From positions 1-48,510 of the forward strand of contig JAFSKR010000005.1 of assembly GCA_017448825.1 (NCBI GenBank): a stretch of DNA of 48,510 nt. The letters run 5' to 3'. The notes below the pieces were generated by a model. That model was given only the letters and a program-made list of their open reading frames with translations, was not told the origin of the DNA and did not search any database. Made by a program: the position numbers and the translations under genes. This document shows positions 26,437-29,517 of the stretch, piece after piece (positions within the stretch are counted from its first letter, which is position 1; each line of letters opens with the position of its first letter). Source of the DNA: Bacteroidaceae bacterium. Its GTDB lineage: Bacteria > Bacteroidota > Bacteroidia > Bacteroidales > Bacteroidaceae.

Positions 26437-26520
26437 TTTTACCCCTATGTTCACATCATCAACCAACCCTCTGACAAATCATAAAAAGTTCGGGAAAGTG
26501 TATTTTTTCTTTGAAAAACA

Positions 26521-26552
26521 TTTGGAGGAAAGGAAAACAAGTTGTATCTTTG
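26521..26552 (+). promoter_or_regulatory. Promoter TTTG-20-TATCTTTG of the toxin-antitoxin transcript
   Basis: TTTG at 26521-26524 and TATCTTTG at 26545-26552 have exactly 20 nt between them, a full Bacteroidetes promoter. Transcription would start near 26559, giving a leader of about 105 nt before the antitoxin ATG. Confidence 0.8.
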
Positions 26553-26640
26553 TCCCCGAATGAGTGGCAACACTCTCTGCGGTGCTTCGGTGTCGTGGCT
26601 AATTGGTAACTATAAGCGTTATGTTCTTTCTGAAAACAGG
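26553..26640 (+). ncRNA. Leader RNA family, copy A (5' half only)
   Basis: The leader begins with a perfect hairpin gagtg-gcaa-cactc (26562-26575). A second stem, cggtgc-TTCG-gtgtcg, follows, closed on a UUCG tetraloop. The segment 26579-26626 (through aattggtaac and agcgttatg) matches 27521-27569 at about 40 of 48 positions by eye; where the stem differs (cggtgc against cgatgc) pairing is kept (G-U against A-U). Only the 5' half of the longer 27490 leader is present; the antitoxin gene follows it. I do not recognise it as a named RNA family. Confidence 0.55.
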
Positions 26641-26665: not shown

Positions 26666-26941
26666 ATGAATACGACAGCATTACAAAGTGTTTGGCAGAC
26701 CTTACTTGGTTACGACCTTACAGCAGCCAACAAACGCTGGCTGGCTGACCATTTGTATGAAGCAGTGAAGGCGGAAAATATGAAGGCAAGGAGAAATGCG
26801 AAGTCTTGGCCAAAGTTGTCAAAAGCAGATTTAGTCATTTCTCCAGAAGTGATGGCTTTGGTGGAAGGGGTTGAACCATTACCAGAAGATTTTGACGTAA
26901 ACAAAGTTCGCTTAGAATATTTGATGAAAAAATATGGATGA
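26666..26941 (+). CDS. Antitoxin-like protein of a type II toxin-antitoxin pair
   Basis: This 91-residue protein (start ATG at 26666; an in-frame TTG lies 12 bp upstream) begins MNTTALQSVWQTLLGYDLTA. It is mostly helical and charged, with a segment LVISPEVMALVEGVEPLPED and a C-terminal end likely to wrap the toxin. No clear DNA-binding fold was recognised. Its end overlaps the PIN-domain toxin gene by 8 bp, the usual arrangement of VapBC modules, where the antitoxin neutralises the toxin and represses the operon. The function is therefore inferred mainly from position and size. Confidence 0.7.
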   Translation: MNTTALQSVWQTLLGYDLTAANKRWLADHLYEAVKAENMKARRNAKSWPKLSKADLVISPEVMALVEGVEPLPEDFDVNKVRLEYLMKKYG

Positions 26942-27374
26942 TAGAATAAACGTCTTTATCGATACAAACATTCTGATTGATTATCTTGCTCGCCGAAAAA
27001 CTTTTTTTGAAGCGGTGGCACTTATCATCCAACTTGGCAAGAAAAAGAAATGTAATTTGCAAGTTTCTTCGTTGTCATTTGCTACTGCGAGTTTTATTAT
27101 GCAGGCTCATTACAAGATGAGGCATGATGACATCGTCAAGAGGTTTGCCAATTTTGTCAAACTCTGCAATGTGACTACAGTAGATTCTCAAGCAATAGAC
27201 GAATCTCTGACTTCCCTTTTTGACGATTTTGAGGATGCCATGCAATATTTTTCCGCTACACGAGAAGGGGCAGATGTTATCATCACTCGTAACAAAACAG
27301 ATTTCAACGCATCTCAACTCCCTATTTACGAGCCGCAAGAGTTTTTGGATGTTTTGTTATCGGGACATCAATAA
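26934..27374 (+). CDS. PIN-domain ribonuclease toxin (VapC-like)
   Basis: This 146-residue PIN-domain protein shows the acidic active-site pattern. VFIDTNILIDYL near the N-terminus contains Asp10, FFEAV has the second acidic residue, and DFEDAMQYFSATREGADVIITRN supplies the remaining acidic residues before NKTDF. VapC-type toxins are Mg-dependent ribonucleases, often cutting tRNA or rRNA, restrained by the antitoxin encoded upstream. The start overlaps the antitoxin gene by 8 bp. A strong terminator follows 20 bp after the stop codon. The pair lies between two copies of a leader sequence (26553 and 27490), suggesting insertion as a cassette. Confidence 0.85.
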   Translation: MDDRINVFIDTNILIDYLARRKTFFEAVALIIQLGKKKKCNLQVSSLSFATASFIMQAHYKMRHDDIVKRFANFVKLCNVTTVDSQAIDESLTSLFDDFEDAMQYFSATREGADVIITRNKTDFNASQLPIYEPQEFLDVLLSGHQ

Positions 27375-27394: not shown

Positions 27395-27428
27395 AGGCAC
27401 AAAGCACTTTCCACTTTGTGCCTTTTTT
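27395..27428 (+). terminator. Intrinsic terminator after the vapC-like gene
   Basis: Arms aggcacaaag (27395-27404) and ctttgtgcct (27414-27423) are perfect complements with a 9-nt loop, followed by a run of T to 27428. Confidence 0.85.
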
Positions 27429-27457
27429 GTGCCCTGTTGAAAAAAGTTGGGGAAAAG

Positions 27458-27489
27458 TTTGTGGGTGTCGGAGTTTTTTAGTTAATTTG
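27458..27489 (+). promoter_or_regulatory. Promoter TTTG-20-TTAATTTG of the Big_2/dockerin gene
   Basis: TTTG at 27458-27461 is followed after 20 nt by TTAATTTG (27482-27489), one base from the TAnnTTTG consensus. It would give a leader of about 290 nt before the ATG at 27784, long for a bacterial gene and filled by a structured element. Confidence 0.6.
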
Positions 27490-27741
27490 CAACCGATTGG
27501 GCGGTTAACGTCCTGTCACTGCGATGCTTCGGTGTCGTGTCTTATTGGTAAAATAGAAGCGTTATGCTCATCGTACAGACAGAAACCTGAGAAATTTCTA
27601 AAAAAACAACGATGGAGGATAGGCATAGTGTTTCACGTTATAGCGTGGAACATCTACTCTGTCGTTTATCGTTGTGGGTTTTCTCAGGACCTCTGTCTGA
27701 AACGTGGACATAGCAGTTCCACGCTTCTTCGTTTTATATAA
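27490..27741 (+). ncRNA. Leader RNA family, copy B (full, with alternative pairings)
   Basis: Three perfect nested stems are visible: cagacaga 27576-27583 with 27692-27699; cctgagaaa 27586-27594 with 27680-27688; acaacgat 27606-27613 with 27668-27675. Inside is the hairpin gtttcacg/cgtggaac (27630-27637, 27644-27651). After the nested stems, gttccacgc (27716-27724) can pair either with the nearby cgtgga (27703-27708) as a small hairpin, or with gcgtggaac (27643-27651) inside the nested domain over 9 perfect pairs, which makes a pseudoknot. The two states exclude each other, so this could be a regulatory switch. The 5' part matches copy A and the 3' part resembles copy C. No known riboswitch recognised. 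Confidence 0.6.
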
Positions 27742-27783
27742 ATGTCTTTCAAGGGACTGGGGAGGACAAAAAAAGGGAAGACA

Positions 27784-29517
27784 ATGAAAAAACTCTTGTT
27801 AATTCTTGTAATGTTTTCGACATCGATATATCGTTTGTCGGCAGCAGACTACACAACCACTATCACAATGATGATAGGTAAATCTGCAACAATAAATCCT
27901 GTTACAGATGTAGGTCTCACACTCTCTAATACGTGTAAAATCTACCAAGAGACATATGAGATGTATTACAACAATGTCTATGACAATAGTGCATTTACGA
28001 TAACACCAATAGACAACGCATATAAAATAGAAGCATTGAGAACTGGGACTTTTCGGATGGATGTCAAAGTCACCTGGTTCAATCCCAAATCCCAATATCT
28101 AATATATACAACCTATATAGCCACCTATAATATCAATGTCATCGATGTCACCCAGATTAATATGCCTTCTTCTCTGAATCTACAGCCTGGCAGTACTTAC
28201 ACACTAACACCCCAGATATTGGAAACGGGTGCAACATCGGAACTTACATGGACGAGCAGCAACACGGGAGTTGCTATTGTCAGCAACGTTGGTGTCATTC
28301 GGGCACTTAGGGTTGGCACGACCGACATCACTTGTACGGCCTATAACGGTGTAAGTGCAACTTGCCGAATCACCGTAGTACCTATTATCGCAGAAGATTT
28401 TGTGCTGGAGGAGACTTTGTTGGAATTGGAGCAAGGCGAGACTGCTACATTGAGTCCGATTTTTACACCTGCCAATACAACAGACCAGAGTGTGACCTAC
28501 AAGAGTTCGAACACGAAAGTAGCAACGGTGGATGCCGAAGGCCTTGTAACAGGTGTGGGCAAAGGAACCTGTACCATCACGGCAAGTACTAACGATGGAA
28601 GTGGGCTGAATGCTGCATGTACCATTACAGTCAAACCTACGGTTACGTCTATCACGCTACAAAACGCAATGGAATTGACTGTCGGTCAAAGCAATATACT
28701 TGAGCCTGTTATTCTGGAAGAAGGTGCAGTAACTACGCTGACTTGGCATAGTAGCAATACTTCTGTTGCGACGGTCACCAGCGATGGAACTGTCTATGCC
28801 GCCAGTGCAGGAAAGACCACCGTCACCTGTACTGCCGCCAATGGTGTGTCCGCATCTTGTGAGGTGATGGTGAATCCGCTTCCTAACTACTTGTATTCCT
28901 CCAATATATCCGTCATTGTCGGCAGTCAAGCGACCTTGCCCGTTATGATGGCGAACAAGGAGAAAATCACCGCTTGTGCCTTTGAGATAGTCCTGCCCGA
29001 GGGTGTCACCATCTCCTCATATCAACTGACAGATCGTAAGGCAGACCAGAGTGTCGGGGTTGAGCAACTTGCCAATGGCAACCATCAGGTGGTCATTTTC
29101 TCTTCTACCTCTACAGCACTCAACGGAACAGATGGCGTGCTGTTGAATCTCGCACTTACTGCCGACATGTTCATGAGTACAGGAACTTATGTCCTCGGCA
29201 TCAAGAACATAGAGTTGACCACAACAGACGCTCTTACCATTAATCCTGTAGATGTGAATGTGGCACTGACCGTGAGCGACGTGCAGATAGGCGACGCGAA
29301 CGGTGACGGCAAGATTTCCATCACCGATGCAGTGGCGATTGTAAACAGTATTCTCGGCAATGCTTCCGCAAACTTTGTCAATGAGGCTGCCGATGTGAAC
29401 GGTGACGGGAAGGTAAGCATCACAGATGCTGTGGCAGTGGTCAACAAGGTCTTGAAATCGGGAACAGTCAGTGCAAAAGTGAGAATGAAGGAAGAGGGGC
29501 AACTTGATCCTCAATGA
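27784..29517 (+). CDS. Secreted Big_2 / cohesin-like / dockerin-like surface protein
   Basis: Start chosen at ATG 27784, which opens a signal peptide (MKKLLLILVMFSTSIYRLSA); an upstream in-frame ATG at 27742 would precede it by 14 codons. The 577-residue protein has a diverged Ig-like N-terminal domain and three clear Big_2 domains (about 115-370, each with the pattern SSNTxVATV and an ending such as CRITVVP). A cohesin-like beta-sandwich follows (about 375-500, with FEIVLPEGVTISSYQL). A type-I dockerin-like pair of calcium loops lies at about 503-565: GDANGDGKISITDA and DVNGDGKVSITDAV. Cohesin and dockerin modules bind each other, so the protein could join larger cell-surface assemblies. It has a 290-nt structured leader. 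Confidence 0.85.
   Translation: MKKLLLILVMFSTSIYRLSAADYTTTITMMIGKSATINPVTDVGLTLSNTCKIYQETYEMYYNNVYDNSAFTITPIDNAYKIEALRTGTFRMDVKVTWFNPKSQYLIYTTYIATYNINVIDVTQINMPSSLNLQPGSTYTLTPQILETGATSELTWTSSNTGVAIVSNVGVIRALRVGTTDITCTAYNGVSATCRITVVPIIAEDFVLEETLLELEQGETATLSPIFTPANTTDQSVTYKSSNTKVATVDAEGLVTGVGKGTCTITASTNDGSGLNAACTITVKPTVTSITLQNAMELTVGQSNILEPVILEEGAVTTLTWHSSNTSVATVTSDGTVYAASAGKTTVTCTAANGVSASCEVMVNPLPNYLYSSNISVIVGSQATLPVMMANKEKITACAFEIVLPEGVTISSYQLTDRKADQSVGVEQLANGNHQVVIFSSTSTALNGTDGVLLNLALTADMFMSTGTYVLGIKNIELTTTDALTINPVDVNVALTVSDVQIGDANGDGKISITDAVAIVNSILGNASANFVNEAADVNGDGKVSITDAVAVVNKVLKSGTVSAKVRMKEEGQLDPQ

Follow-up and report, generated by a model that had tools for sequence, protein, structure and literature searches.

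What is the long structured RNA that would precede a gene for a secreted protein in a contig of a Bacteroidaceae bacterium, does it belong to a family, and could it control the gene that follows? The window, i.e. the whole stretch of DNA analysed here (48,510 nt of contig JAFSKR010000005.1, forward strand), had previously been interpreted from its letters alone, and this sequence-only reading proposed a conditional leader (riboswitch, thermosensor or attenuator) controlling surface-protein synthesis. We suggest, with a probability of roughly one half, that the locus carries a cis-acting leader of an unnamed Bacteroidota RNA family, which has two conserved, mutually exclusive folds and gates the start of translation through docking of its tail on the loop of a downstream hairpin. 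The location in cis, a surplus of G-U pairs and exclusive pairings that covary all agree with the earlier proposal, whereas "controlling surface-protein synthesis" is too narrow, because homologues precede very diverse genes.

Structure and surroundings of the window copy

Folding of the core (27556-27729) is predicted at -75.6 kcal/mol; its z is -9.7, and 0 of 200 dinucleotide shuffles were as stable. For the longer leader (27490-27775) the fold z is -7.0, with 0 of 200 shuffles as stable. The features of the locus are listed below. The z values of helices come from the duplex test described further on, in its main set of 65 rows unless stated otherwise.

27458..27461, + strand: candidate -33 box, TTTG (sequence)
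27482..27489, + strand: candidate -7 box, TTAATTTG, TAnnTTTG-like (sequence)
27499..27513, + strand: first small 5' hairpin (predicted fold)
27521..27538, + strand: second small 5' hairpin, GCGATGC-TTCG-GTGTCGT (fold, blastn matches)
27555..27728, + strand: structured core, short form, 174 nt in the window; 124.7 bits to covariance model R1, whose 82 rows include a near-identical relative of this copy (L213)
27555-27562:27721-27728, + strand: outer helix P1 (z -6.1; -0.3 in 102 rows)
27555..27562, + strand: 5' strand of P1, with an alternative partner within 27622-27634 (B0; z -5.6; -5.8 in 102 rows)
27576-27583:27692-27699, + strand: P3, 8 bp (z -31.3)
27586-27594:27680-27688, + strand: P4, 9 bp (z -23.0)
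27606-27616:27665-27675, + strand: P5, 11 bp, of which the 8 outer pairs are perfect, with two G-U pairs towards the inner end (z -28.7)
27609-27614:27569-27574, + strand: A:A', alternative to part of P5 (z -11.0)
27629-27638:27643-27652, + strand: inner hairpin P7 (z -9.4)
27642-27651:27716-27725, + strand: B4, inner arm as alternative partner of the tail (z -7.8, 0 of 400 shuffles)
27663-27667:27700-27704, + strand: B3, alternative helix, with CGTTT at 27663..27667 (z -8.4)
27714..27720, + strand: tail CAGTTCC, whose partner is the loop GGGACTG at 27753-27759 or the inner arm (z -7.7 with the downstream leader)
27743..27768, + strand: 3' hairpin TGTCTTTC:GGAGGACA with loop GGGACTG (sequence and relatives)
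27784..29517, + strand: downstream gene, encoding a signal peptide (by eye), Big_2 domains and a dockerin (Pfam)

The three nested helices of the sequence-only reading correspond to P3, P4 and P5, all of which covary strongly, and its inner hairpin corresponds to P7. As it had also observed, the tail segment 27716-27724 is perfectly complementary to 27643-27651, and this pairing covaries in the wide set. A local partner proposed there, cgtgga (27703-27708), is indeed complementary to part of the tail, but its pairing shows no covariation (z +0.4, +1.6 and -0.2 in three row sets) and was rejected. P1 had been overlooked, as had the possible pairing between tail and 3' hairpin.

The boxes upstream follow the -33/-7 promoter consensus of Bacteroidetes, and transcription would start a few bases after the -7 box, near 27494-27500. 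The region of the second 5' hairpin resembles a truncated copy of the leader at 26514-26631 (blastn), and TGCTCTTTCTTG bears a possible resemblance to rrn boxA. A leader peptide starting from the ATG in GTTATGCTTATC was considered and dropped, the same ATG being absent by eye from distant members.

We take 27784, where the signal peptide MKKLLLILVMF... begins, rather than 27742 as the start codon of the gene. The 3' hairpin ends 15 nt 5' of it. RNAfold of 27735-27784 alone favours a competing downstream arm, GGAAGACA (27776-27783), directly 5' of the start codon; in this window-type form of the 3' hairpin, TGTCTTTC is paired with GGAAGACA (27743-27783). After the outer helix stands CTTCTTCGTTTTATA, in which the T run is interrupted. 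The product had been described as a Big_2/cohesin/dockerin protein; Pfam recovers Big_2 and dockerin, but no cohesin at E<=0.001.

A leader family spread through the Bacteroidota

In the genome of origin blastn found two more full copies and one promoter-side fragment (window 26574-26626), and at E<=0.001 a match is present in 23 of 61 genomes (own and relatives), some covering the promoter only. The motif GAAGCRTTATGCTY is present in 24 of the 45 genomes of the genus. Among 50 distinct occurrences in the stretches retrieved, 40 have the conserved tail; by eye, 6 of the other 10 stand before small genes and 4 inside unrelated coding sequence. An exact pattern made of the tail and the next hairpin loop matched at least 120 stretches in a species-level genome collection; among the matches listed, all but L124, L171, L211 and L231 (L numbers denote loci) are Bacteroidota by record title, including Bacteroides, Phocaeicola, Parabacteroides, Prevotella, Alistipes, Butyricimonas, Muribaculaceae, Flavobacteriia and Aquimarina. 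L124, L171 and L231, together with L118 from a viral collection, were set aside as chance matches. Phocaeicola massiliensis and Bacteroides faecichinchillae are among the cultured carriers.

The pattern yielded 107 short forms, 83 after dereplication, and with L235 left out by hand the remaining 82 were used to build the covariance model R1, which, owing to this origin, favours tails like theirs. With strict filters and E<=0.001, the genomes matched by R1 number 76 of 198 in the order, 53 of 296 in the class and 20 of 296 sampled from the phylum, each count including the own genome. The own genome holds 7 R1 matches, and six genomes searched more fully hold 21, 22, 11, 13, 18 and 16. R1 found nothing in three genomes outside the phylum, those that had given chance pattern matches; its one match outside the phylum, in a MAG named Acetatifactor, we take for contamination.

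Members come as short forms of 159-183 nt (A3 set) and as long forms of 205-234 nt with an extra branch. Common to both are P1, P3, P4, P5, the inner hairpin P7 and the tail, which usually has a small hairpin 10-45 nt downstream, its loop resembling GGGACTG. A loose loop motif is absent from 8 of the 40 tailed members of the genus search, among them L081, L096, L097 and L112, which by eye have no such 3' hairpin. A minimal member, L110, has no rod and keeps GAAGCG...CGCTTC (P1), the tail and the 3' hairpin.

By their sequence surroundings the family members look like cis-located mRNA leaders, with a promoter box upstream and a gene start downstream. A Bacteroidetes -7 box lies at most 100 nt upstream in 165 of 203 elements, where shuffled sequence gives 28; a -33/-7 pair is present within 140 nt in 68 of 203, where shuffled sequence gives 1.4. 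An ORF starts 25-80 nt after P1 in 139 of 193 members; the same reading of the opposite side and strand gives 6. The helices of the rod contain 348 G-U cells versus 77 A-C cells, a surplus that is uneven, with 148 G-U cells in P7 alone and a reversed ratio in P4 (2 G-U versus 12 A-C); antisense rows L311 and L242, and repeats, were left out of these promoter and pair counts. Since G-U exceeds A-C in most rod helices, it is on balance the transcribed sense strand that appears to be under selection.

The downstream genes are very diverse: they encode surface proteins above all, and also restriction and other cargo genes are found. Pfam (E<=0.001) assigned 54 families among 125 downstream proteins, with LRR_5 (BspA type) in 20, Big_2 in 8 and HSDR_N in 5; the tally covers 125 of 141 downstream ORFs, each truncated to 320 residues, after the removal by hand of near-duplicates and some short ORFs. 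Of the 109 targets with >=60 residues, 66 look secreted by a crude N-terminal pattern, compared with 145 of 461 other ORFs with >=200 residues. On Bacteroides uniformis plasmid pBUN1 the leader follows a MobV relaxase gene and directly precedes the beta-lactamase gene blaMUN-1 (L351, 4001-4265); on a Parabacteroides distasonis plasmid it follows a hypothetical protein and directly precedes a DUF4433 gene (L353, 4001-4239).

Several further arrangements were observed. Closely similar proteins (MDFKDSI...) follow the leader in L114, L116, L117, L125, L160, L179, L202, L215 and L237; they are HSDR_N by Pfam where tested, and three of the contigs come from the viral collection. Two elements stand in tandem before one gene in L276 (256-406 and 460-631), and L283 contains two nearly identical elements (1251-1414 and 2376-2539), each before a similar gene. 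The distant class-level members L330-L349 often have a small opposite-strand gene upstream, with an HTH by Pfam in L334 and no Pfam match in three others tested; the TonB receptor found after distant members has a Plug domain (6 loci tested).

The promoter and 5' leader part alone heads small genes in the window (26514-26631, with 26666-27374) and in L069, L071, L083, L092, L094 and L108. Pfam identifies toxins behind these partial leaders as PIN_3 (window, L094), YoeB (L071) and ParE (L092); by eye L083 resembles L094, whereas Pfam gives no match for L069 and no toxin was noticed in L108. A full leader follows 0.9-1.1 kb downstream of the partial one in the window, L069, L071, L092 and L094, an arrangement that would fit the insertion of a cassette together with a duplicated start of the leader. 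In L008 (with L035, G019) a window-type promoter side is joined to an L003-type core and gene, upstream leader parts having been exchanged between paralogues.

The sequence-only reading could not match the element to a named family, and our searches agree. Rfam 15 (4227 families) gave 0 matches in the whole window at gathering score and 0 in 27400-27850 at E<=10. At gathering score, 17 homologous loci had none at the element and 7 elsewhere (5 tRNA, tmRNA, group II intron), and at E<=1, 16 loci with divergent members had none at the element and one CRISPR repeat away from it. It is unusual for a leader of such size and covariation to be without an Rfam family.

Metabolite riboswitches, e.g. 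the cobalamin riboswitch, can have a loop-loop lock before the gene. The present leader is similarly a structured, covarying 5' leader with a downstream hairpin loop that pairs back into the core, but unlike those it has no Rfam match and no known ligand. As in riboswitches, the family presents a conserved structured leader with exclusive pairings; a pathway shared by the downstream genes is not seen in the 54 Pfam families, which counts against a leader with two folds. The mRNAs of hok type have metastable and stable folds, and by description our leader is like them in its exclusive local versus long-range pairings and possible control by folding order; unlike them, it stands before unrelated genes, and no antitoxin RNA was seen.

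No description of the leader was found in the literature searched, PMC11109978 included; it may be among the thousands of candidates listed by PMC8040213, or in another set of 224. FopS, as presented in PMC11697453, has a single-stranded 5' stretch and a terminator hairpin and acts on mRNAs in trans. Like the FopS and GibS sRNAs of Bacteroides described there, the leader is a multi-copy Bacteroidota RNA with some link to SusC-type genes; unlike FopS, it consists of a structured core of 160-235 nt in cis, and it differs from FopS in fold and position. Flavo-1, named in PMC9723704, is likewise a Bacteroidota RNA motif near diverse genes, but 0 Flavo-1 matches at E<=1 were obtained in the 16 loci with divergent members.

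Covariation of two sets of helices

Covariation was assessed by a duplex test, in which the energy of two segments from the same member is compared with that of segments swapped between members. The main set consisted of 65 model-found rows with <75% identity, from which antisense L311 and L242 and duplicate sequences had been dropped, as they had from the wider set of 102 rows. Shuffles ignore relatedness; a map of all 1275 segment pairs, with 95% and 99% quantiles of +1.9 and +2.5, provides the better null.

The first set of helices (fold A) would form one long rod, with the 5' half paired to the 3' half through P1, P3, P4, P5 and P7. All five covary in the main set (values above), and P6 reaches z -2.9. 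In 102 model-found rows, weighted, P5 has z -30.2, P3 -28.7, P4 -17.9, P7 -9.1 and P1 -0.3. Among the 82 pattern-found members P3, P4, P5 and P7 are supported (0 of 2000 swaps reached), and P2 and P6 are without support in the duplex test. P2 is inconsistent, with z -0.9, -0.2 and -0.1 for short segments and -5.5 in a 9-base map (7-15:148-156); double changes in it are present in the alignment counts. These counts, taken from all 104 distinct rows in an alignment fitted to fold A, give 91.3% of fold-A cells paired versus 67.0% shuffled and 34-45% slid, a covariation score of 0.565 versus 0.172 shuffled and 0.055-0.080 slid, and double changes in 44 of 47 pairs.

The second set (fold B) covaries more weakly than the rod helices. 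To the main-set values of A:A', B3, B4 and B0 given above, the 102 weighted rows add z -11.3 for A:A', -6.0 for B3 and -5.8 for B0. In the 82 pattern-found members A:A', B2 and B3 are supported (0 of 2000 swaps reached), and in their map of 831 segment pairs A:A' ranks right after P3 and P4. B2, a local 5' hairpin, was not used further, as its z of -5.0 in the pattern-found set fell to -2.1 in the 102 rows. In the 104-row alignment, fitted as it is to fold A, 72.2% of fold-B cells are paired versus 67.6% shuffled and 38-52% slid, and the covariation score is 0.203 versus 0.153 shuffled and 0.067-0.083 slid. B0 and B1 are paired in 49-66% of cells, with G-U to A-C cells of 111 to 62 and 106 to 143, respectively, which results partly from alignment register.

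Bases are shared outright by P7 and B4, P1 and B4, and P1 and B0 alone. Covariation in both alternative helices was what the sequence-only reading had named as support for a switch, and both P7 and the pairing of tail and inner arm do covary, which indicates that the exclusive pairings are conserved. Within the helix region of B4, a segment pair lying outside P7 and P1 (94-102:151-159, L240 numbering) has z -5.2. The independence of the B4 signal is weakened because inner arm and tail lie in imperfect direct repeats inside the RNA.

For the tail's other partner, the downstream leader, z is -7.7 in the 65 rows, compared with -2.3 to +0.1 for five control segments. When the tail segment is set a few bases off (102 rows), tail:3' leader has z -2.6 and tail:inner arm -4.1. 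In the 82 pattern-found members, 825 of 2000 shuffles reached the value of tail:inner arm and 67 of 2000 that of tail:3' leader, a set that is uninformative here because the pattern fixes the tail. Changed tails are matched by changed loops (CAGTGCC/GGCACTG, CAGTCCG/CGGACTG, GGTTCC/GGAACC). A permissive search found some 3' hairpin in 203 of 204 members; complementary loop:tail runs of at least 5 occur in 137 of these 203 and none that long in 66, and the mean run of 5.56 versus 4.95 in swapped pairs was not reached in any of 500 swaps.

A possible mechanism and its rivals

Folded alone, the 5' half of the window copy forms 27556-27568:27622-27634 and 27569-27574:27609-27614, and the 3' half forms 27642-27651:27716-27725 and 27663-27667:27700-27704, with a few shorter helices besides. 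These are the covarying helices of fold B, which cannot coexist with P1, P7 and part of P5. In silico, the rod has much the greater stability (-76.0 versus -18.9 and -29.2 kcal/mol for the halves in the window; means over 184 rows of -64.6 versus -50.0), so that fold B may be just a folding intermediate.

We propose that fold A would leave the tail CAGUUCC free to dock on the small hairpin loop shortly 5' of the start codon, while in fold B each half would be folded on itself, the inner arm would take the tail and the hairpin loop would be released. The RNA may move between the two folds in the cell, and the order of folding suggests that fold B would appear first during transcription, with fold A as the stable end state; the output would probably be the access of ribosomes to the start region, and a small molecule, a protein, temperature or transcription speed may set the balance. 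Translation start rules are unusual in Bacteroidota, where Shine-Dalgarno sequences are generally absent (PMC3155529, PMC6847099). If the leader is a switch, it would represent a new layer of gene control in these bacteria, and the covarying helices point to the exact pairs to test. That it is moreover one ancient bistable leader, a phylum-wide switch class reused up to ~20 times per genome ahead of unrelated surface and cargo genes so that their translation answers a single global cue, is a bolder idea which we put forward tentatively, at somewhat less than even odds.

The main rival to a leader with two folds is a static compact structure, in which a bend at the P4/P5 bulge would fold the rod back on itself and let both strands of internal loop J2/3 pair with both of J5/6, serving mRNA stability or protein binding with no switching. 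A:A' and B3 could then be tertiary contacts of the folded-back rod, not a second state: both connect one and the same pair of internal loops, no other fold comes near the rod in stability, and a multi-branch junction is predicted at the bend in long forms. However, the covariation of tail and inner arm, whose bases are shared with P7 and P1, is left unexplained, and on the whole we regard this rival as unlikely.

Control at the level of transcription, in which an intrinsic terminator would be formed by T residues after either P1 or the hairpin of tail and inner arm, seems improbable to us. At least 6 T are present at the end of P1 in 47 of 104 model-found rows, and in 6 of 17 distant loci a TonB receptor does not follow directly but begins 0.38-0.57 kb after the element start (~0.23-0.42 kb after its end). 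However, such a run occurs in just 2 of the 82 pattern-found members, is interrupted in the window (CTTCTTCGTTTTATA), and in most members a gene starts 25-80 nt on.

Very improbable, finally, is a mobile or recombining DNA module (a cassette leader) for which RNA folding would be secondary. In its favour, paralogues of G000 and G019 have swapped promoter sides, small genes (several of them in toxin-antitoxin modules) are headed by copies of promoter and 5' leader, matches occur in 7 plasmid records, in 5 of the 6 viral contigs found and in 2 phage records (71% and 18% of the query covered), and L283 has its two nearly identical members; against it, the rod helices show the G-U surplus (348 versus 77), most other same-genome members compared by eye differ clearly, and the promoter and start-codon spacing is kept.
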